NCBI RefSeq assembly: GCF_002287925.1
Contig: NZ_CP016769.1
Coordinates: forward strand, 1,364,001 to 1,428,000
Direction of reading: 5' to 3'
Source: Candidatus Planktophila lacus
Lineage (GTDB): Bacteria; Actinomycetota; Actinomycetes; Nanopelagicales; Nanopelagicaceae
DNA: 64,000 nucleotides
Shown: in pieces, positions 22,019 through 39,810 of the stretch
How the letters are laid out: each line of letters begins with the position of its first letter
Numbering within the stretch: the stretch's first letter is position 1
The notes under the pieces: generated by a model
The model's input: only the letters and a program-made list of their open reading frames with translations
Database searches by the model: none
What the model was told of the DNA's origin: nothing
Translations under genes and position numbers: made by a program

Positions 22019-22408
22019 ATGATAAAAAACGGAATCATCAACGGAGATCTCGCCTCACTTCTAGCCAGATTTCGCCATGTAAACACCATTGCGATTGTTG
22101 ATGGCCCATTTCCGACTTATCCGAACGTTGAAACCATCGACCTCGCACTAGTCATGGGAACTCCAACGGTTTCACAGGTACTCGACGCGATTTTGCCGCA
22201 CCTAGATTTAACTGGAATGTATTTGGCGGCAGAGTTTGAGGCGAAGGTTGATGCCGCAACAGTTGCTGAGTACAAAACTCATCATCGCGGATTAGCAACT
22301 ACGGTAATTCCTCATGAAGAATTTAAAGTTAAAGTTGGCCAAGCGCTAGGAATTATTCATACCGGCGATGCTGTTCCGTACAGCAGCGTTATTTTGCGAT
22401 CAGGCTGA
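22019..22408 (+). CDS. rbsD: RbsD/FucU-family sugar mutarotase
   Basis: Interconverts ring forms of a sugar (ribose pyranose/furanose or fucose anomers). I chose ATG 22019 (MIKNGIINGDLASLLARFRH) because RbsD proteins start there, giving 129 residues. The catalytic His of the RFRH motif and the C-terminal GDAVPYSSVIL are present. Its 3' end overlaps the convergent ribokinase gene by 20 bases, a back-to-back pairing that still suits a ribose role. Confidence 0.8.
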   Translation: MIKNGIINGDLASLLARFRHVNTIAIVDGPFPTYPNVETIDLALVMGTPTVSQVLDAILPHLDLTGMYLAAEFEAKVDAATVAEYKTHHRGLATTVIPHEEFKVKVGQALGIIHTGDAVPYSSVILRSG

Positions 22409-23309
22409 AATCTATCTCTTCAATTTTTGGATAAGAAGATTGCGCTCCCTTTCGGGTAACGCTCTTGGTTGCACAATCGATTCCAAATTGAACTGCTGAT
22501 TCTTCGCTTGCACCCGATGCTAACGCAGCGGCAAATGCGCCAATAAAGCAATCGCCTGCACCAGTTGTATCCGTCGCCGTTACTTTCTTAGCTGCGAATC
22601 GCTTAACAGAACCGTCTGCAGTTACTAGCGCTGCCCCATCGCTTCCCAAAGTTACGATCATGCGGCCAGTTTTGCGAAGCGATGCAATAACTGCATCTGA
22701 ATCCGGTGCACGATGGGTCTTATCGAGTTCAGCAAATTCAATCTCGTTAGGTATTAACCAATCTGTTAACTCGAGCAGGTCATCTGTAAGTGGTTGATAA
22801 GGCGCAGGATTAAGGATTGTTGTGATCCCAAGTTCCTGAGCGGTACGAAAAGCAGCCAGTGTTACTTCTTGTGGAATTTCACATTGTGCAATTAATACGC
22901 TGACTGCTTTTAACTTGGAGACTTCATCAATTGCATTCTGTGGTGTCAGCGCAAAATTTGCGCCTGGAACAATTGAAATTCGATTCTGGCCTTGGCCATC
23001 CACCCAGATATGTGCCACGCCAGTGTGTGTTGGCAATTGCAGAACTGAAGTTGTATCCATTCCACAGTTCTTAAAGTTAACCAAGCTTTCGCTACCAAAT
23101 CCATCGTTTCCGATGCCGGTGATCATTGTGACTTTAGCGCCAGTACGGGCTGCCATTACCGCTTGATTGGCGCCTTTTCCACCGAATCCAGTTGTAAAAC
23201 TTTCTCCAAAGCGGGTTTCACCGGCGGCCGGAAGAATGTCTGCATAGACAGTTAAATCCATCATGGTGCTGCCAATTACTGCGATCTTGGTATTTGAAAA
23301 ATTCTGCAT
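22389..23309 (-). CDS. rbsK: Ribokinase (PfkB family)
   Basis: Phosphorylates ribose to ribose 5-phosphate. 306 residues, normal length. The sugar-binding GFGGKGANQAVMAARTGA and the catalytic anion-hole DTTGAGDCFIGAFAAAL are intact, and the N-terminal VIGSTMMDL is typical. It is the last gene of a minus-strand run after the DhnA-type aldolase and the Gfo/Idh/MocA oxidoreductase, with two bases between it and the latter. Confidence 0.88.
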   Translation of the reverse strand: MQNFSNTKIAVIGSTMMDLTVYADILPAAGETRFGESFTTGFGGKGANQAVMAARTGAKVTMITGIGNDGFGSESLVNFKNCGMDTTSVLQLPTHTGVAHIWVDGQGQNRISIVPGANFALTPQNAIDEVSKLKAVSVLIAQCEIPQEVTLAAFRTAQELGITTILNPAPYQPLTDDLLELTDWLIPNEIEFAELDKTHRAPDSDAVIASLRKTGRMIVTLGSDGAALVTADGSVKRFAAKKVTATDTTGAGDCFIGAFAAALASGASEESAVQFGIDCATKSVTRKGAQSSYPKIEEIDFSLIAK

Positions 23310-26384: not shown

Positions 26385-27698
26385 ATGTCTCAACAAATTT
26401 TGATCGGTGTAGATATCGGCACTTCTCGAATCAAGGCAGTTGCAACAGATTTTGATTTAAAGGTAATCGCTGAATATGCCGAGCCAACTCCTTGGCGCCA
26501 TGAGAAAAACGCTAGCGATATAGATATGTTGCTCTTGGCTAAGACGGTCACCGCAGTTGCAGCGAAAGCGGCAGAACTTGCTGGTGGGAAAGTCGCAGCA
26601 ATTGGTTTCACCGGCTTTAGCGAAACCGGAGTTTTGATTGATGGTGCTGGTAAGCCACTGGCACCTGGTTTAGCGTGGCACGATCCGCGCGGCTTAACTG
26701 AACCAATCATTAAGGAACTTGGCGATTACGAATTTAGAGCGCGCGCTGGTGCGCTATTAAATGAAATTGCATCGATTTCAAAAACGCTCTGGCTAAATCA
26801 GGAATACCCCGAAACTCGCAAAGCCAAACACTTTCTCTCGGCGCCAGAATGGGTTGCTTACTGCCTTGGTGCAGATTTGGTAAATGAACTTTCACTAGTA
26901 AGCAGAACTGGTTTCTACGATGTCGAAGCGCGTGCGCCTTGGCGTGAAGCAATGGCGCTAGTTGGCGGTGGAGAAGATTTCTTAGCTCGTTTAGTTGTTG
27001 CAGGCGAACCAATTGGAATTGTTAGTAACGATGCCCCAGAGGTTTTGCGTGGCGCAGTCATTACTATTGCTGGACATGATCATTTCACTGCAGCGTATTA
27101 CTGTGGTGCTATAAATGAAGGATCGCTCGTTGATTCGATGGGAACCGCTGAGGCTTTACTACGCACATTTAAGAAGCCGTTATCTCGAGATGCGATTGCT
27201 GAATTAGCGGCGGCTAATGTTGGATTAAGCGCTTCGGTTATTGCAGATCACTTCACCTTGCTTGGTGCACTGCCAACTGGCCTAACTCTAGAAAGAGTTT
27301 GTTCGCTGGTTGGCGTTTCAACGCGCGACGAGAAGATTGCACTTGGTGAAGCAGCACTGAAAATCGATCCAAAGGCTAGTGCGCTGAGTGTTAACAATGA
27401 TTATCACGGTCTCTCTGTCACTAATCTCGATGATGCCGTCTCACCTGCCGCGCTCTTTCGAGCAACTGCTGAACATCTCGTTGATGAGTCAGCAAAGATG
27501 GTCTCTCTAATTGAAAAGTTCACCGGACCTGCTACAGAGGTAGTTATCGCCGGTGGTTGGGTAAAAAATCCAATGATTGCCAGCGCCAAGAAGAAACAAT
27601 TTGGAAGTTATAAAGTCTCTGATGCCACAGAAGCTGGCGCAACAGGTGCCGCGCAGTTCGCGGGAATCGCTGCAGGAATACTTAAGTTAAGAAGTTAG
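26385..27698 (+). CDS. FGGY-family carbohydrate kinase
   Basis: 437 residues, at the short end for this family. N-terminal phosphate loop IGVDIGTSRIKAVATD, substrate segment WHDPRG, and the C-terminal VVIAGGWVKNPMI plus EAGATGAAQFAG are FGGY features. The kinase is downstream of the ManA-like isomerase in the same operon. Substrate unknown; it could serve a ketose or an intermediate such as L-erythrulose produced by the apionate-like route, which is inference. Confidence 0.75.
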   Translation: MSQQILIGVDIGTSRIKAVATDFDLKVIAEYAEPTPWRHEKNASDIDMLLLAKTVTAVAAKAAELAGGKVAAIGFTGFSETGVLIDGAGKPLAPGLAWHDPRGLTEPIIKELGDYEFRARAGALLNEIASISKTLWLNQEYPETRKAKHFLSAPEWVAYCLGADLVNELSLVSRTGFYDVEARAPWREAMALVGGGEDFLARLVVAGEPIGIVSNDAPEVLRGAVITIAGHDHFTAAYYCGAINEGSLVDSMGTAEALLRTFKKPLSRDAIAELAAANVGLSASVIADHFTLLGALPTGLTLERVCSLVGVSTRDEKIALGEAALKIDPKASALSVNNDYHGLSVTNLDDAVSPAALFRATAEHLVDESAKMVSLIEKFTGPATEVVIAGGWVKNPMIASAKKKQFGSYKVSDATEAGATGAAQFAGIAAGILKLRS

Positions 27699-28466
27699 CT
27701 ACTTATATTGCTCAAGAGTCCAGGCGCGAACACCGCCGGCTACTCCTGCTGCATTTGGAACGATAACTACCTCATCGCCCATACGATCTAAATCTGCTTG
27801 GCGAATACAGCGCGCATTACCGCCACCGATATAAAGGCGATCCCACATAAACACTGGGCGAAGTTCATCGACCATAGCGCGAATGCGACGTGACCAGAAT
27901 GCATTTCCGAGGCGACGACGTTCGTGTTCGCCGATCCATGTGTCATAAGTAGTTGCGCGACGAACTGGCGCATGTGAAAACTCAATGTGTGGTGAGAGTG
28001 ATCCACCGTAGAAAATTGCAAAGCCAAGTCCAGTTCCAAGCGTGATCACAACTTCATAACCAGAGCCCGAGATAATTCCGGCGCCATGAACTTCAGCATC
28101 ATTTAAAACGCGAGTTGGCATCTCTAACTTTTTAGTTAGTGCGTTTTGCATATCAAATCCGCTCCACTGTTCTTGGAGTTCTGGATCGATCTTTGTGCGT
28201 GGACCAGATTTAGTCATGTAATGCGGTGTCGAGATAACAACGCCATGACGGATCATTCCGGGCATACCAACGGTTGCACGGTATGCCGATGGAAGTGAAT
28301 CGGCGATTCCCTTAATGGTTTCGATAAAGCGATCTGGTGAAAGCGGGTAAGGAGTTTCAATTCGACTTGGCTTTGAGTGCATTGTGCCTGACTCATCGAG
28401 TACGCAACTCTTTAGAAAGAGTCCACCGCAGTCGACGGATAGCGTTAAGCGCTCATCGTTGGCCAT
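27699..28466 (-). CDS. ROK-family sugar kinase
   Basis: About 255 residues from ATG 28466, which has GGGAG nine bases upstream; an ATG at 28484 is the alternative. LSVDCGGLFLKSCVLD is the N-terminal phosphate loop, VLNDAEVHGAG contains the catalytic Asp, and VITLGTGLGFAIF the second glycine motif. Such short ROK proteins resemble polyphosphate/ATP glucokinases. The typical ROK zinc motif CxCGxxGC is absent. Its stop codon directly abuts the convergent FGGY kinase stop. Confidence 0.75.
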   Translation of the reverse strand: MANDERLTLSVDCGGLFLKSCVLDESGTMHSKPSRIETPYPLSPDRFIETIKGIADSLPSAYRATVGMPGMIRHGVVISTPHYMTKSGPRTKIDPELQEQWSGFDMQNALTKKLEMPTRVLNDAEVHGAGIISGSGYEVVITLGTGLGFAIFYGGSLSPHIEFSHAPVRRATTYDTWIGEHERRRLGNAFWSRRIRAMVDELRPVFMWDRLYIGGGNARCIRQADLDRMGDEVVIVPNAAGVAGGVRAWTLEQYK

Positions 28467-28519
28467 TGGAAAATTCTCCCACAACCCTTGCTACAACTGA
28501 AATTCTTATTTGGCTAGGC

Positions 28520-30867: not shown

Positions 30868-30945
30868 TCGCAGAGCCTACCGCAGGGCTAATCTCTGCTG
30901 CTAGAGTTGAAAAAGTTAACTGTTACCAATTAATAAGGAGTTTTC

Positions 30946-31791
30946 ATGACTGTCATTACGATTTTAGGCGCCGGCGGCAAAATGGGTAATCGTGTTACCC
31001 AGCCACTTCTTGATACAAAGAAGTACGAGCTTCGCTTCGTAGAAAAATCTGAGGCTGGCCAAGCGCGAATCCGCGAAGCCGGAAATACAGTTATGGAATT
31101 AGATGATGCCCTTAAAGGAACTGATGTAGTTATCTTTACAACTCCTGATGCTTTGGTACGCCAAATTTCTGATGAAGTTGTTCCAAAGTTAGATCCTGGT
31201 ACAAAGATTCTCTTCCTTGACCCTGCAGCAATTGCTGCAGATCGCGTTAAGCATCGCGCAGATATCAGTTGCTTCGTCTGCCATCCGACTCATCCACCGG
31301 TATTTAGTTTGCTCGGCGAAACAGATCCTGCAGCGCGTCGTGACTACTGGGGTGGCGGACTTGCAACTCAAGCCTTGGTGTTTGCAATTGCCTGGGGAAC
31401 TGAAGAAGAAGCAGATCTCGTCGAAACAATTGCAACTGAAATGTTTGCACCAATTAGCGCAAGCCACCGTATTACCGTTCAGCAGATGGCACTTCTTGAG
31501 CCGGCGCTTAGCGAAACTCTAATTAACGGCTGCGTCGAAGTAATTACTCAAGGTTTGCAAAAGGTTATTGATCTTGGCGTTCCTGAAGCTGCTGCCAAAG
31601 ATTTCTGCATGGGCCATTTGCAGATCAGCATCGCGCTCTTGTTTGAAGAGTTAAATTGGAAGTTATCTGATGGCGCACTTATGGCGCTAAAGAACGCTCA
31701 AGGTTCGCTCTTTCGCGATGATTGGGATGCCATCTTTAAGCCCGAGAATGTTCTCGCTAGCGTTAAGCAGATAACTGGCGGAGATAAGTAA
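30946..31791 (+). CDS. apnO: D-apionate oxidoisomerase-like protein (NAD-binding, phosphogluconate dehydrogenase C-terminal-like domain)
   Basis: 281 residues. Rossmann domain starts TILGAGGKMGNRV; the HPTHPPVF motif and the helical C-terminal domain (QQMALLEPALSETL) place it in the family that includes ApnO, the NAD-dependent oxidoisomerase turning D-apionate into 3-oxo-isoapionate. AAGGAG precedes the ATG. It is first in a tight operon with OiaC-like, SDR and ApnL-like genes (gaps of 4, 2 and -4 bases), and that combination is the main support for the substrate. Related enzymes acting on other sugar acids cannot be excluded. Confidence 0.62.
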   Translation: MTVITILGAGGKMGNRVTQPLLDTKKYELRFVEKSEAGQARIREAGNTVMELDDALKGTDVVIFTTPDALVRQISDEVVPKLDPGTKILFLDPAAIAADRVKHRADISCFVCHPTHPPVFSLLGETDPAARRDYWGGGLATQALVFAIAWGTEEEADLVETIATEMFAPISASHRITVQQMALLEPALSETLINGCVEVITQGLQKVIDLGVPEAAAKDFCMGHLQISIALLFEELNWKLSDGALMALKNAQGSLFRDDWDAIFKPENVLASVKQITGGDK

Positions 31792-31795
31792 GTAG

Positions 31796-32608
31796 ATGAA
31801 ACTCGGTATATCCAGTTTCACCTTTCCCTGGGCGATCGGCGGGATCGAGCCTGACTATCCAGTTGCGATGAGCGCCTTTGAACTTTTGGAGCGCGCCCAC
31901 AATTTAAAGGCTGATGTATTGCAGATCGCCGATAATTTGCCGATTGGCGGGCTTGCAGAGGCCGAACTTCTTAAGTTAAAGGCGCAAGCAGTTAGTTATG
32001 GAATATCAATAGAAATTGGAACTCGCGGAATCAAAAGCGAGAACATTGAGAATTTTCTACGTATCGCACAGTTACTGGGTTCGCCGATTCTGCGAGTTGT
32101 CATTGATAGCAAAGGCCACGAACCCACAATTCCGGAGATAGTTCAACTACTTAAACCTTTCGAAGCTAAATTTAAAGAAGCAAATATCAAGCTAGCGATT
32201 GAAAATCACGATCGCTTAACCTGCGCAGAATTTAACGAGATCATTGATCAAGTTGGCTCTGATTGGGTCGGAATTTGTCTAGATACTGTTAACTCACTTG
32301 GCGCAGTCGAAGCGCCCAATACCGTGATTCCGGCGCTGGCACCTCGTGCAATTAATGTGCATTTGAAAGATTTTGAAATTGTTCGCACCAACGGGCAGAT
32401 GGGATTTACCGTTCGAGGAACAGCGCTCGGCGAAGGTCGATTAGATGTCGCTGAAGTCATCACCGCGGTAGGTGGAACCAAACGCGAGATCACCGCGGTT
32501 ATCGAACTTTGGACTCCACGCCAAGATAGTTATGAAGCAACTGTTGCTTTAGAGAACGAATGGGCAGAGATCAGTGTTACTAATTTACGGAAATCGATAG
32601 GATCTTAA
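31796..32608 (+). CDS. oiaC: Xylose isomerase-like TIM barrel, 3-oxo-isoapionate decarboxylase-like
   Basis: 270 residues with the sugar phosphate isomerase/epimerase fold. Metal-site candidates are the Glu of LAIENHDR, the Asp of ICLDTVNSLGA, the His of NVHLKDF and the Glu of AVIELWTP. Members adjacent to ApnO and ApnL include OiaC, which decarboxylates 3-oxo-isoapionate to L-erythrulose. It follows ApnO by four bases and precedes the SDR by two. Family fold is sure; the exact reaction is inferred from context. Confidence 0.6.
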   Translation: MKLGISSFTFPWAIGGIEPDYPVAMSAFELLERAHNLKADVLQIADNLPIGGLAEAELLKLKAQAVSYGISIEIGTRGIKSENIENFLRIAQLLGSPILRVVIDSKGHEPTIPEIVQLLKPFEAKFKEANIKLAIENHDRLTCAEFNEIIDQVGSDWVGICLDTVNSLGAVEAPNTVIPALAPRAINVHLKDFEIVRTNGQMGFTVRGTALGEGRLDVAEVITAVGGTKREITAVIELWTPRQDSYEATVALENEWAEISVTNLRKSIGS

Positions 32609-32610
32609 CT

Positions 32611-33327
32611 ATGGAGTTAACGGGCTATAACGTTGTCGTAACCGGCGGAAGCGGCGGTATCGGCTCAGCTTTAATTACTGGCCTTATCCAATCTGGCGCA
32701 ACTGTTCATAACTTGGATCTACAAAGCCCGGCCCCTTCAGATGCAAAGTTTTATAAGACTGATTTAACTGATGAGAATTCTGTAAAGGCATCTCTCTCTT
32801 TTATCAAAACAATTGATGCGCTAATTGTTTGTGCAGGTGTGCAGTTGGTTGGCGCCGATTCCAAGATTGCAGAAGTTTCACTCGATACCTGGCAGAAAAC
32901 TATTGATATAAATATGACTGGTGCTTTTTTATCGGTTAAGCATGCAATGCCCGGCCTTATCCAATCTGGCAGAGGTTCAGTTGTTTTGATCGGTTCTCCA
33001 ACTGGTATGACGATGGAGGGCGCTGGCTACACCGCCTATGGCGCATCTAAAGCCGGAATGATGGGGCTTTCGCGCATCATCGCCGTTGATTACAAAGAGC
33101 AAGGCGTTCGTTCCAATGTGGTTGTTCCCGGAACTATGTCGACTCCTTTGATTCAGAAGATTTGGGATGACCCAGAGAAAGGCCCTGATCTAATTCGCCG
33201 AACTCCGCTTGGACGAATGGGTAAGCCAAGTGATTTGGTTGGTTTAGTTAATTGGTTGGTCTCTGATCAATCTTCATTTGCAACTGGTGCAATGTACGCA
33301 GTCGATGGCGGAATGACTGCCCGATGA
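32611..33327 (+). CDS. Short-chain dehydrogenase/reductase of the apionate-like operon
   Basis: 238 residues, classical SDR: cofactor loop TGGSGGIGSALITG, NAG-like segment VCAGVQL, catalytic Ser in VLIGSPTGM, and the YTAYGASKAG motif with Tyr and Lys. The Asp after beta-2 (NLDLQS) suggests NAD(H). It lies between the OiaC-like and ApnL-like genes and overlaps the latter by ATGA. A natural guess is oxidation of apiose to apionolactone or a related step; sequence alone does not prove it. Confidence 0.8.
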   Translation: MELTGYNVVVTGGSGGIGSALITGLIQSGATVHNLDLQSPAPSDAKFYKTDLTDENSVKASLSFIKTIDALIVCAGVQLVGADSKIAEVSLDTWQKTIDINMTGAFLSVKHAMPGLIQSGRGSVVLIGSPTGMTMEGAGYTAYGASKAGMMGLSRIIAVDYKEQGVRSNVVVPGTMSTPLIQKIWDDPEKGPDLIRRTPLGRMGKPSDLVGLVNWLVSDQSSFATGAMYAVDGGMTAR

Positions 33328-35105
33328 GTAAGAATTTCTGGCCGGATACCCAACGGGTTGAGCACGCTGGATTTACAGTTGATATCGCACGCGCTGCTAT
33401 CAGAAACGTTACTTATCAAGGCGCGCAAATAATTGATCTGCTCTACACCGCAATTCGTCCTTGGGATTGGTCAACTCTTGATCCCGATGAACATAGCGAA
33501 GTTGTTGAGATATCAGGAGAAAATTGTCTTATAACAATTACTGATTTATTTGCAGGATCGATGCAGGGGAAGACGGTCTTAACTCTGCAACCTAACGGGA
33601 AATTTACAATTGACTACCAGCTAACTGGTTTAGGGAAATTTGAAATCCAACGGTGGGGTGTTTGTTTCTGTCTACACACTGGCGACTGGATGGGTTCAAC
33701 CGTTAACGCCAACGGAGATACCTATTCATTACTTAAAGAGATCTCGCCACAGCGCGTTATCGATGGCGTCACAAAAGGGCTATTTCCTGCCAGCAACGAT
33801 ATGTACTTCGTTGCCCCAGATAAGAGATCGCTAAAAGTTATATCAACTGGCAAGGTTTTAGAAGCGGAAGATCAACGCAACTGGACCGATAACACCTACA
33901 AAATTTATAGCGGTTCGTTAGCCGAACCCCGTCCTTTTGTAATTGAAAAAGGTATGAAATGGGAACAACGGGTCGAATTTGAAGTGACTCCGCCGGCAAC
34001 TTCGATCCCTGATGGATCAAAGATCATTGCAAGAGATATTCCTTCACTACCGCGCATTGGCGTGCAATTTAATGGTGAGCCTTTACTGCCGAGCGATGAC
34101 CTCGAAAAGGCGCTATTTATTCTCGAAATCGACCACATCCGCGTAAATGAAGAGTCGCTAACTGCCCAAAAGATCGCAACGATAAGTAAGAGCGGCCTTG
34201 CCCTTGAAGCCGCACTGCTCTCATCAAATGACGGTGGCGAACTAGCTAGAGAAGTTGAACATTTAAGCGCCCGAGTTCCGGCAGGTTCACGTTTATTGAT
34301 TCATCGCCAAGGCCGTCAAATTGTTCAAGGCTCTGATCTACCAAAGAATACAACCTTAAATTCTTACATTCCTGGCAGCGATGCTTACTTAGTTGATCTA
34401 CATCGCGAGAAATTTGAGTTCGGTGACGCGGTTTCATATTCAATGGTCCCGACAGTTCATTCATCTGATCCGGAAACTATCTTTAAAACTCTCTACACCC
34501 AGAAAGAGTCGATTGAGTTTGCTAAGAAGTTTGTTGCACCCCAAGTATCAGTCTCTCCAATTACCTTTTCTACTCGCGGAAATCCTGAGACCGGACACCT
34601 GCGGGATAACCGAATTAACTTTGCCCAGCCCGGGATGGCAGAACAGATCAAAGAGTTATCTGCTGCCGCTTGGACTTTAGGTTCTGTATTTGCACTTGCG
34701 AGCGCCGGTGCATATTCGGGAACATGGCACGAACTCTTCGGTGAACACGGTGTTATTTACAACGAAGGTTCTGCAATTAAGTTCTCACCAACTTTTCATG
34801 CATTGTCAGCGCTAGGTGCGCATCACGCACATGAAATTACAATCGCAACTTCACTCGATAGTTCGTGGGTGGCCTTCGAAGACCGTGAATCGCGAAAGAT
34901 GGTTGTCGCCTCGCAGCGACCATGGGTTGTTGAAATTACCCCAAAGGTTTTGGCCGGCTACAAATCGATTCAAAGCCTGCACGCCAATGAGTGCGAAAAG
35001 GCGAGCCAGATTATGGATTGGTGGTCATATGCTGAGATAAATCCACTTATCGGCGATATCCCGCTATCGATCACCCCCTTTGAGATCCTCCTCCTGCGTG
35101 GCTAA
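33324..35105 (+). CDS. apnL: D-apionate lactonase-like protein
   Basis: 593 residues, no signal peptide, so cytoplasmic. The N-terminal beta-rich domain (1-220) ends with AEDQRNWTDNTYKIY, which I recognise as characteristic of ApnL; a central TIM-barrel-like region (about 245-510) and a C-terminal beta domain follow (about 510-593), the three-part ApnL layout. ApnL opens D-apionolactone to D-apionate. The gene is coupled to the SDR before it. Identity is from remembered family features and operon context, not a search. Confidence 0.65.
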   Translation: MSKNFWPDTQRVEHAGFTVDIARAAIRNVTYQGAQIIDLLYTAIRPWDWSTLDPDEHSEVVEISGENCLITITDLFAGSMQGKTVLTLQPNGKFTIDYQLTGLGKFEIQRWGVCFCLHTGDWMGSTVNANGDTYSLLKEISPQRVIDGVTKGLFPASNDMYFVAPDKRSLKVISTGKVLEAEDQRNWTDNTYKIYSGSLAEPRPFVIEKGMKWEQRVEFEVTPPATSIPDGSKIIARDIPSLPRIGVQFNGEPLLPSDDLEKALFILEIDHIRVNEESLTAQKIATISKSGLALEAALLSSNDGGELAREVEHLSARVPAGSRLLIHRQGRQIVQGSDLPKNTTLNSYIPGSDAYLVDLHREKFEFGDAVSYSMVPTVHSSDPETIFKTLYTQKESIEFAKKFVAPQVSVSPITFSTRGNPETGHLRDNRINFAQPGMAEQIKELSAAAWTLGSVFALASAGAYSGTWHELFGEHGVIYNEGSAIKFSPTFHALSALGAHHAHEITIATSLDSSWVAFEDRESRKMVVASQRPWVVEITPKVLAGYKSIQSLHANECEKASQIMDWWSYAEINPLIGDIPLSITPFEILLLRG

Positions 35106-35136
35106 TCCGGCTTTATAACGCCCTTTTCTGCCGCTC

Positions 35137-35153
35137 GTAACGGTTCGGTAACG
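35137..35153 (+). repeat. Direct repeat GTAACG x2 upstream of the sugar-binding protein gene
   Basis: GTAACG occurs at 35137-35142 and 35148-35153, eleven bases apart start to start, that is one helical turn, within the 137-base gap between the ApnL-like gene and the binding-protein gene. The arrangement could be a regulator site. The rest of the gap shows only a strong AGGAGG ribosome site before the ATG at 35243 and no clear promoter. Confidence 0.3.
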
Positions 35154-35242
35154 ATCGAATTTTCGCCCAAAAACCCTTTTATTGCGGTGGGCGGCTATGT
35201 ACTATCGGTATCGCTTGACCCCACCTATAGGAGGAAATACAT

Positions 35243-36310
35243 ATGGCAAAGCTTTTCTCACGCCGCACTGCAGCAGTTGTTGCTGTAGCCGCAGCGTCAA
35301 TGCTTGTGCTTTCTGCATGTTCAAATAGCGACAGCGGAAGCGGAGACACTGTAAAGGTCTCACTAATTACTAAAGATCAGTCAAACCCATTCTTCGTTGC
35401 GATGATCAAGGGTGCAACTGAGAAGGCTGAAACTCTCGGCGTAGAACTAACTGTTACATCTGGTGTAGATGAGTCAGATTACGCAGGACAGATCACAGCG
35501 ATTGAAAACGCAATCTCTGCAAAGCACGCTGGTATCTTGATCGTTCCAGTATCAACAGAAGTTAACGCAGCGATCACAAAGGCACGCGAAGCTGGCCTTT
35601 ACATCATCGCTCTTGACACAGCACCAGATCCTGCTGACATCGTAGATATCACTTTCGCAACAGATAACCGCGAAGCTGGTCTTCTAATCGGTCAGTGGAC
35701 AGCTGCAAAGCTTGCTGGCAAGAAGGCAACAATTGCACTTCTAGACATCTTCGATGACCGCATTGTGTCTGTTGACTACATGCGCGATAACGGATTCCTT
35801 GCAGGTATGGGAATTGATGTTAAGGATCCAAACAAGATGGGTGACGAAGCCAAGACTGGCAAGTACTCAGGCGGCGACTATGAGATCGTTGGAAACGTAG
35901 CAACAGGTGCTAACGAAGACGGCGGCCGTACAGGTATGGAACAACTTCTTGCTAAGAACAAGAAGATCAACGTTGTTTACACAATCAACGAGCCAACAGC
36001 AATCGGTGCATGTGCTGCAGCAGCTGCTGCTGGTATCAAGCTCGATGTAATGGTTTCTGTTGACGGTGGCGGCGCTGGTATCAACGCTGTTAAGTCAGGT
36101 TGCATCAACGCAACTTCACAGCAGTACCCATTGTTGATGGCTGACCTTGGCGTCCAAGCTATCTACGACATCGTGAAGAACGGTACAAAGCCAACTACTT
36201 CAGAAGGCCTTGACTTCTTCAACACCGGCGTTAAGTTGATTACTGATGACCCACAAGAGGGTGTTCCATCAGAGACAACTGAATACGGTCTAGCAAACGC
36301 TTGGGGTTAA
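35243..36310 (+). CDS. Sugar ABC transporter substrate-binding lipoprotein (RbsB-like family)
   Basis: 355 residues. Signal peptide with basic start (MAKLFSRRTA), hydrophobic core and lipobox LSAC at about residues 23-26, so membrane-anchored outside the cytoplasm. The mature protein is a periplasmic-binding-protein fold of the ribose type: SLITKDQSNPFFVAMIKGA, then GILIVPVSTEVNAAI, IIALDTAPDPADI, and TINEPTAIGACAAA. The perfect AGGAGG site suggests high expression. Members of this family bind ribose, galactose, apiose and other sugars. Downstream come permease and ATPase after a strong hairpin. Confidence 0.9.
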   Translation: MAKLFSRRTAAVVAVAAASMLVLSACSNSDSGSGDTVKVSLITKDQSNPFFVAMIKGATEKAETLGVELTVTSGVDESDYAGQITAIENAISAKHAGILIVPVSTEVNAAITKAREAGLYIIALDTAPDPADIVDITFATDNREAGLLIGQWTAAKLAGKKATIALLDIFDDRIVSVDYMRDNGFLAGMGIDVKDPNKMGDEAKTGKYSGGDYEIVGNVATGANEDGGRTGMEQLLAKNKKINVVYTINEPTAIGACAAAAAAGIKLDVMVSVDGGGAGINAVKSGCINATSQQYPLLMADLGVQAIYDIVKNGTKPTTSEGLDFFNTGVKLITDDPQEGVPSETTEYGLANAWG

Positions 36311-38316: not shown

Positions 38317-39810
38317 ATGGCCACTCCGGTTCGTATTGAATCGGATGTGGTCATTGTTGGTTCTGGGATAGGTGGCGCCACAACTGCCTTTGCTTTGGCG
38401 CAAAAGGGTGTTAAAACGCTGGTTTTAGAGCGCGGCGAACGAATGCCACGTGAGCCTGAAAACTGGTCGCCATCTGAGATCTTTATGAAGACTCGCTACA
38501 AGCCAAATGAAAAATGGGTTGATGAAAAGGGAAATGAGTTTGTTCCCGGCGTTCATTACTTCGTTGGTGGAAATAGCAAGGTTTACGGTGCATCTCTGCC
38601 GCGCTTTAGCCGTTATGACTTTGGCGTAATCAAACATCAGGAAGGTATTTCGCCCGCCTGGCCATTTACCTACGATGACCTCGAGCCTTTCTACTACAAA
38701 GCCGAAGAGCTATACCGCGTCCATGGCGATGCGCAGAATATTTATGGCAACAACCGCATGACTCCATTTCCATACCCTGCGATGAAACATGAGCCATACG
38801 TTGAAGAGCTCGGAAAGCGGCTAGTTAAAGCTGGCGTGCACCCACATTCAAATTCAATGGGAATTGATCTTGGGCCTGGTGGAAAATGTATTCGCTGCAA
38901 AACTTGTGATGGCTTTGTTTGTAAGTTGGATGCCAAGAGCGATGCTGAAGTAAATGCACTTAATCCAGCAATTGCAACAGGCCATGTAACTCTCATGACT
39001 TCAGTACAGGTAAATCGCATTGTGCTTACTAGCGATGGAAAGTCAGTCAGCCATTTAGAGGCCACTAGAGGCGATGAAGCCCTCGAGATTTATGGAAAAA
39101 ACTTTGTTATCGCAGCTGGCTCTGTAAATACCGCAGCGTTACTTCTTCGCTCCGGTGTTGCTAACTCATCAGATCAAGTTGGCCGTAACTTTATGATGCA
39201 TAACAACAGCCATATCGCTGCCGTGGATATGCGTCGCAAGAACGATGTCACTTTCCAGAAGACACTTTCTTTCACCGATTGGTATCTAGATGGTGGTAAG
39301 GGTTACCCGCTTGGCGCTGTGCAATTAATCGGCAAGGTGCAAGGCATCATGATGAAATCTTTCGCTAAGCACGTGCCACTGCCGATACTTAACTTAGTCT
39401 CTGATCACAGCGTGGAATTTGTGGTTATGTCTGAGGACCTGCCACACCCAGATAACCGCGTAACTATTGATAAAAATGGCGCAATCAAGATTGCTCGCAA
39501 ATCAGTCGGAATGAAGACCCACTTTGAACTTCTGCGCCGGGCTAAGAAAGTACTTCGCAAAACTGGCTACCAAGCAATCTTTAGACAACCTTTTGATATT
39601 TCGATGAACTCACATCAATGCGGAACAACCGTTGCCGGCAACGATCCGCGCACCAGCGTTGTCGATGGCTATTGCCGCAGCCACGATCACCACAATCTTT
39701 ACTTAATCGATGGTGGATTCTTCCCATCATCTGCAGCAATGAACCCAGCGCTGACAATCGCCGCACAGGCGCTGCGCGTTGTTGAGCAATCAGATCTAGC
39801 TAAAGTTTAA
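38317..39810 (+). CDS. GMC-family FAD-dependent oxidoreductase
   Basis: 497 residues. FAD-binding VVIVGSGIGGATTAFALAQKG at the N-terminus, GGNSKVYGA near 85, and the C-terminal active site SHQCGT (catalytic His) with AAMNPALTIAAQAL (Asn). A cysteine-rich segment CIRCKTCDGFVC (about residues 189-200) resembles that of pyranose-oxidase-like and sugar-acid dehydrogenase large subunits. No signal peptide, so cytoplasmic. It probably oxidises a sugar, glycoside or cyclitol hydroxyl, possibly that imported by the transporter before it. Its stop interlocks with the convergent gene in TTAA. Confidence 0.83.
   Translation: MATPVRIESDVVIVGSGIGGATTAFALAQKGVKTLVLERGERMPREPENWSPSEIFMKTRYKPNEKWVDEKGNEFVPGVHYFVGGNSKVYGASLPRFSRYDFGVIKHQEGISPAWPFTYDDLEPFYYKAEELYRVHGDAQNIYGNNRMTPFPYPAMKHEPYVEELGKRLVKAGVHPHSNSMGIDLGPGGKCIRCKTCDGFVCKLDAKSDAEVNALNPAIATGHVTLMTSVQVNRIVLTSDGKSVSHLEATRGDEALEIYGKNFVIAAGSVNTAALLLRSGVANSSDQVGRNFMMHNNSHIAAVDMRRKNDVTFQKTLSFTDWYLDGGKGYPLGAVQLIGKVQGIMMKSFAKHVPLPILNLVSDHSVEFVVMSEDLPHPDNRVTIDKNGAIKIARKSVGMKTHFELLRRAKKVLRKTGYQAIFRQPFDISMNSHQCGTTVAGNDPRTSVVDGYCRSHDHHNLYLIDGGFFPSSAAMNPALTIAAQALRVVEQSDLAKV

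Follow-up and report, generated by a model that had tools for sequence, protein, structure and literature searches.

Introduction

Among the closest described counterparts of the genes analysed here is the OiaC branch of the oxidative D-apiose pathway, which was reportedly set out by Carter et al. in 2018 and consists of ApsD, ApnL, ApnO, OiaC and LerK. We analysed a four-gene operon of Candidatus Planktophila lacus, located in a stretch of 64,000 bases (bases 1364001-1428000 of contig NZ_CP016769.1, a one-contig genome of 1.46 Mb that is 99.96% complete). This whole stretch is referred to below as the window. The genes encode an ApnO-like oxidoisomerase, an OiaC-like TIM barrel, a short-chain dehydrogenase/reductase (SDR) and a distant homologue of the D-apionate lactonase ApnL.

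Like the OiaC branch, the window operon unites an ApnO-type gene, an OiaC-type TIM barrel gene and an ApnL homologue, and the genome lacks the oxo-isoapionate kinase family. It differs in having an SDR gene instead of a gene for a Gfo/Idh/MocA dehydrogenase (ApsD), in the lack of any Dak1 match in the genome, and in that its ApnO and TIM barrel fall into separate deep lineages. Judged from its genes, the operon appears to encode a separate form of an established bacterial pathway, in which apiose, or here perhaps a close relative of it, is oxidised and CO2 is released. Streamlined freshwater actinobacteria retain few sugar pathways. For this reason an operon that handles a branched sugar of plants would, if the reading is true, be of interest, since it would tie these bacteria to plant-derived carbon in lakes.

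Apiose clusters are known from other bacteria. A marine Rhodobacteraceae strain is reported to grow on D-apiose and to have a cluster with genes for a lactonase, a dehydrogenase, an oxidoisomerase, a kinase and a decarboxylase (PMC11747546). For E. coli apiose clusters, a pair of putative oxidoreductases is proposed to stand in for the D-apiose isomerase (PMC13001218), and the RuBisCO-like branch is mentioned in PMC6302742. The paper on freshwater bacterioplankton PMC7527133 contains no sugar words, and no description of this operon was found among the matches listed for apiose, apionate, isoapionate and Planktophila.

Results and Discussion

Structure and conservation of the gene block

As shown in Table 1, the four open reading frames (ORFs) lie on the plus strand. 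They are spaced by 4, 2 and -4 bases, in agreement with a first-pass annotation of the window, which had regarded them as tied together by these gaps. The complete block, with its gene order unchanged, was present in 9 of the 11 loci retrieved in a search with the 593-residue protein. Of the remaining two, L042 is cut by a contig end and L043 holds only a remnant. Because the order is conserved in nine of eleven loci, the block is not a product of chance. Across ten of these loci, ApnO was 94-100% identical to its window counterpart, the TIM barrel 73-98%, the SDR 73-97% and the ApnL-like protein 63-96%. Of 16 comparisons with four relatives, 14 gave a ratio of nonsynonymous to synonymous substitution rates (dN/dS) of 0.012-0.153, and two were saturated at synonymous sites. 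The operon is real and conserved as a unit, is of the apionate kind and forms a lineage of its own.

Within the genus, ApnO-bearing genomes are a minority (8 of the 81 searched). L043 has lost the block but kept araB, araD and the substrate-binding protein gene, and a remnant of the ApnL-like protein (residues 465-588) lies between them. In L030 araB and araD are gone together with the block, and the remnant covers residues 494-593. The different ends of the two remnants suggest that the block was lost separately in L043 and L030.

Homologues of the 593-residue protein were found in actinobacterial metagenome-assembled genomes with freshwater-looking titles (Pavin, pond, Baikal), and CP015604.1 (Actinobacteria bacterium IMCC26103) is among the records that carry both the homologue and the block. 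Three such records are labelled Streptomycetaceae or Bifidobacterium breve; synteny makes these labels unlikely. The window genome and these relatives probably belong to the acI freshwater actinobacteria.

Table 1. Coordinates of the operon, its upstream region and other features. Positions are those of the window unless a locus is given.
Feature	Position	Strand	Remarks
ApnO-like oxidoisomerase (PGDH_C family, ketol-acid-reductoisomerase-like NAD domain)	30946-31791	+	281 aa ORF
OiaC-like TIM barrel, predicted metal-dependent 3-oxo-acid decarboxylase	31796-32608	+	270 aa ORF
Classical SDR, predicted sugar 1-dehydrogenase	32611-33327	+	238 aa ORF
Divergent ApnL-like lactonase homologue	33324-35105	+	593 aa ORF
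Likely promoter region, between divergent araB (-) and operon	30868-30945		78 bases
Second ApnL homologue	L004 9459-11222	-	NF049900 262.6 bits
FGGY sugar kinase	26385-27698		window; no tie to block
PfkB sugar kinase	22389-23309		window; no tie to block
ROK kinase	27699-28484		window; no tie to block

The ApnO-like oxidoisomerase

The first gene encodes both domains expected of ApnO, a PGDH_C domain (PF16896, 162.7 bits, cut-off 25) and a ketol-acid-reductoisomerase-like NAD domain (KARI_N, 31.1 bits, also above its cut-off). Its best PDB sequence was 5t57 (218.9 bits). NCBIfam models named for ApnO or OiaC were of no help, since they matched neither the window genes nor the control genes, among the latter the Erwinia TIM barrel described below. 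ApnO catalyses an oxidation plus a migration, and the kinship of the protein to ketol-acid reductoisomerase fits this chemistry. Of 54 columns that do not vary in a set of 23 further ApnO sequences, from which a long-branch sequence of L018 had been dropped beforehand, the window protein keeps 47.

ApnO genes with 42-43% identity lie in the Shinella, SC52 and Labrenzia clusters, together with ApnL, a RuBisCO-like protein and a four-carbon acid sugar kinase. The Shinella cluster (L013; ApnO-ABC-Gfo/Idh-ApnL-NanR-OiaX-kinase), in which the RuBisCO-like protein is annotated as OiaX, resembles the window locus in its ApnO (42% identical) and in the ribose-type ABC transporter genes nearby, but neither OiaX nor a DUF1537 kinase stands beside the window operon. 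When 394 genomes of the class were searched, ApnO was matched at E 0.001 in 65 and strongly in 21. The strong matches were four genus members at 592-622 bits and 17 others at 147-169 bits, and all the rest scored 30.3 bits or less. The window gene looks like an ApnO-type oxidoisomerase, with predicted activity on D-apionate.

The OiaC-like TIM barrel

The TIM barrel matched PF01261 at 63.4 bits (cut-off 31.1) and was 33% identical over 264 residues to a gene of Erwinia E602, whose neighbours are a Dak-type kinase gene, a triose-phosphate-isomerase-like gene and ApnO. This arrangement is the gene layout of the OiaC branch. Somewhat nearer relatives were found in L020 (37.6%), L021 (35.6%) and L022 (34.1%), the last with a Dha kinase gene as its neighbour; the stretches shown of these three loci contain no ApnO. 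Since these stretches lack ApnO, it is unsafe to assign the TIM barrel by identity alone. It keeps 28 of the 31 columns that are invariant in 17 other sequences (two distant ones were dropped beforehand), including E136, D163, H189 and E237, which we take from the fold to be metal ligands.

The first-pass annotation had favoured an OiaC-type decarboxylation, and this view was supported by the kinship to the Erwinia gene that neighbours ApnO and a Dak-type kinase gene, and by a profile search of the genome with PF07005 (DUF1537, OiaK), which gave no match. The protein looks like an OiaC-type enzyme, a predicted 3-oxo-acid decarboxylase with OiaC-type homology and conserved putative metal ligands.

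The rhizobial clusters in L020 (3210-9840) and L021 (3213-8608) combine split transketolase genes, an SDR gene, the OiaC-like TIM barrel gene and Dha kinase genes, and possibly serve a related but different ketose pathway. A distant OiaC-like TIM barrel is encoded on an E. coli conjugative plasmid (L025 4794-5753), beside genes for a RidA family protein and an MFS transporter.

The SDR and actinobacterial loci of similar composition

The SDR matched PF13561 at 151.6 bits (cut-off 27). No cut-off was reached among the best 25 of 217 matching NCBIfam models, the top one of which is an aldose dehydrogenase model, and the protein does not fall into any clear FabG branch. In the 394 class genomes, where scoring was limited to seven first-look candidates per genome, an SDR match at E 1e-35 was obtained in 42. 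After four genus members, the best SDRs were those of G141, G173, G423 and G246 (184-193 bits, 43-44% identity), with the next match at 144.6 bits. These four lie in L087, L082, L086 and L081, respectively, each of which also has ApnO, an OiaC-type gene and an ApnL homologue. The alignment has AGVQL-G-D and SPT----EG stretches in common, and a Y-GAS-K site. Because the best SDRs outside the genus are those of ApnO/OiaC/ApnL loci, the window SDR is probably the sugar dehydrogenase of the route, a role that the first-pass annotation had suggested for it. Recurring as it does in actinobacterial apionate loci, this SDR is a candidate replacement for the known D-apiose dehydrogenase.

The combination of SDR, ApnO, OiaC and ApnL had been proposed as possibly new. 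It is not unique to the window genome: among 17 further ApnO loci of actinobacteria, examined as stretches of 9-16 kb, four hold all four families together. An OiaC-type gene was present in 12 of the 17, a LerK-type kinase gene in 10, an ApnL homologue in 6 and this SDR in 4, and five showed no OiaC-type gene, kinase, SDR or ApnL. The four loci (L082 and L086, of the composition LerK-TIM-OiaC-ApnO-SDR-ApnL, and the similar L081 and L087) thus share all four families with the window operon, and their SDRs are its closest kin outside the genus. They differ from it in having a Dak-type kinase gene in three cases (L081 has none within 15.5 kb), while the window genome has none, in the scores of their ApnL homologues (193-217 bits against 78 with the ApnL model NF049900), and in their ApnO, which is 35-38% identical to that of the window. 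In L087, a LacI-type regulator gene and an FAD oxidoreductase gene separate the SDR gene from ApnL.

A Cupriavidus plasmid (L016 1-9819) carries ApnO, a RuBisCO-like protein gene and a four-carbon acid sugar kinase gene; an SDR and an alpha/beta hydrolase take the place of Gfo/Idh and ApnL there, and no ApnL match was found in this locus.

The ApnL-like protein

Profile alignment (hhalign) of the 593-residue protein with nine other ApnL homologues gave a probability of 99.9% and E 6e-32. It has full-length kinship to the ApnL superfamily in the wide sense, since the alignment spans residues 11-538 of 593. The first-pass annotation had recognised a lactonase by a segment and by a three-part layout; the segment, AEDQRNWTDNTYKIY, is indeed present at residues 181-195, whereas the layout was not seen directly. 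Residues E180, E182, D183, R185, W187, D189, K193 and Y195 are identical in 14 of 14 other aligned ApnL homologues and N186 in 13 of 14, so that the pattern E-x-ED-x-RNW-x-D-xxx-K-x-Y is retained in the window protein. A structure model built with 10 close sequences was of low quality (mean pLDDT 48.5), too low for a fold search; it has beta strands to about residue 222, followed by mixed helices and strands. Pfam models were of no use for this protein, and two high-scoring ApnLs match no Pfam model either. A sequence search of PDB gave only two weak CysB-type matches (E about 0.016), and a profile search gave none.

The proposed route and the identity of the sugar

From homology and gene content we infer what each enzyme catalyses and in which order, which sugar is used and what becomes of the ketose. 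We favour, with clear reservations, an oxidative route in which four enzymes act on a branched-chain sugar, D-apiose being the most likely one. The SDR would oxidise the sugar at C1 to a lactone, and the ApnL-like protein would open this lactone. The ApnO-like enzyme would oxidise C2 and shift the carbon substituent from C3 to C2, yielding a 3-oxo acid, which amounts to the ketol-acid reductoisomerase reaction run backwards. The OiaC-like TIM barrel would decarboxylate the 3-oxo acid to a ketose, in the case of D-apiose L-erythrulose, and the ketose would then need a kinase other than a Dak1-type enzyme.

Several observations weigh against this route. The large protein scored 78.4 bits, in two stretches, with the D-apionate lactonase equivalog model NF049900 (cut-off 750). 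Proteins of four proteobacterial clusters like that of Shinella reached 923, 814, 770 and 646 bits, one of these also being under the cut-off; five actinobacterial ApnL homologues reached 193-217 bits and the second homologue of the window genome 262.6 bits. Only 30 of 49 invariant ApnL columns are kept by the window protein and 19 are changed. With 78 bits against 750 and 30 of 49 columns kept, it cannot be filed as the outright D-apionate lactonase for which it had been taken; rather, it appears to be a rebuilt, far-outlying member of the ApnL superfamily and not the curated equivalog. The tree groups the ApnO of the genus with proteobacterial genes of the kinase/RuBisCO-like type and not with those of the OiaC type, although the root is a midpoint root and the program flags the join of the genus, which is on a long branch, as possibly false. 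In the TIM barrel tree, the sequences of the genus form a third lineage. The SDR is lacking in 13 of the 17 actinobacterial ApnO loci, and in L077 and L080 an ApnL homologue adjoins ApnO without this SDR. The Dak-type L-erythrulose kinase LerK, which is expected of the OiaC branch, has no counterpart in the window genome by a search with PF02733 (Dak1); three of 14 control genomes were positive. This gap leaves L-erythrulose less certain as the product. Finally, the sugar transporter genes adjoining the block persist in L030 and L043, which lack the block.

Because the lactonase has diverged and the kinase is missing, the same chemistry may act on some other branched aldose or aldonate instead of D-apiose, with the lactonase re-tuned; we hold this possible but rather unlikely. 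The separate deep lineages of the genus ApnO and TIM barrel and the lack of a Dak1 kinase would fit such a change. So would the lactonases, as nine genus members keep 27-30 of the 49 columns, while held-out other groups keep 77-89%, with smaller training sets (8 or 12 against 14 sequences). The ELNR motif, invariant in the 14 others, reads DLHR in the window protein, and members of the genus have H or Q at the third place of the motif and differ at the fourth. On the other hand, the invariant columns of ApnO and the TIM barrel are largely kept, the SDR is related to the SDRs found in OiaC-type loci, and long separation alone can yield divergence. A bolder form, which we put forward only tentatively, is that the operon represents a third lineage of the apionate-type pathway, which would start with the SDR and lack LerK, OiaK and OiaX, with a lactonase active site remodelled (ELNR to DLHR) to suit a branched sugar that is not D-apiose, and with a kinase of another family phosphorylating the ketose.

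A second locus in the genome

About 0.16 Mb from the window operon lies a second cluster (L004 4510-12264; G000:C1, about 1232509-1240263), which encodes a Gfo/Idh/MocA protein, an ApnL homologue, an SDR, an MtnA-like isomerase, a RhaD-SDR fusion and a RuBisCO-like protein. It bears on the earlier statement that a dedicated 3-oxo-isoapionate kinase and a RuBisCO-like decarboxylase are absent. The statement holds for the window proteins scanned, which are part of its ORFs, and for the kinase family in the genome, but not for RuBisCO-like proteins in general. The OiaK/OiaX branch finds little support in this genome: PF07005 gave no match, and the RuBisCO-like protein of the second locus, the single one seen, no search for others having been made, remained under the cut-offs of both the OiaX model (77 of 700 bits) and the DK-MTP enolase model (216 of 409 bits).

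The operon and this locus might jointly form a single D-apiose pathway, which we consider improbable. The Gfo/Idh/MocA protein of the second locus is 45% identical to that of the Shinella cluster, its ApnL homologue is the better one, and the only PGDH_C match of the genome is the window ApnO. However, G200 (one contig, 99% complete) has the block and, at E 0.001, a single match to the large protein, so that the block seems self-sufficient and need not depend on the second locus. The Gfo-ApnL-SDR core also occurs in two genomes of another family, and these are not among the ApnO matches listed.

AraB, AraD and the fate of the ketose

The genes araB and araD are transcribed divergently, 78 bases from the block, and adjoin it in the nine relatives that have the whole block. 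AraB was found in 8 of 8 ApnO-bearing genomes (of 81) and araA in 4 of 8. Among those without an araA match, three are 57-74% complete and one, G001, is 97% complete. The L-arabinose isomerase gene araA is present in the window genome and, at the syntenic place and with 92.6% identity, in G200, so AraB and AraD have an ordinary role.

That the ketose is a pentulose feeding AraB/AraD, so that a six-carbon branched sugar would be coupled to the pentose phosphate pathway, is very improbable: the adjacency of the genes, the presence of AraB in all ApnO-bearing genomes and the joint lack of araB, araD and block in L030 (whose genome, 80% complete, has no AraB match) speak for it, but araA in the window genome and G200 and the retention of araB/araD without the block in L043 weaken the pair as downstream kinase and epimerase. 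For the favoured D-apiose route, the gap exposed is a kinase for L-erythrulose, there being none of the Dak1 type in the genome.

Flanking regions

The 78-base region upstream of the operon shows partial conservation when the window is compared with eight relatives, and no sigma-70-like consensus was found in it. Counts of promoter-like sites (2, against 7.8 in shuffled sequences) and terminator-like sites (7, against 6.3) were uninformative. Naming the substrate from the adjoining transporter was considered and dropped, as L030 and L043, which have lost the block, still carry the genes for the transporter and the GMC oxidoreductase. Downstream, a conserved repeat-like stretch, GTAACGGTTCGGTAACG, lies at 35102-35245 of the window, upstream of the gene for the sugar-binding protein, and is largely retained in two relatives without the four-gene block. 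The GMC oxidoreductase gene (38317-39810) directly follows the sugar ABC transporter genes and is likewise kept in relatives that lack the block.

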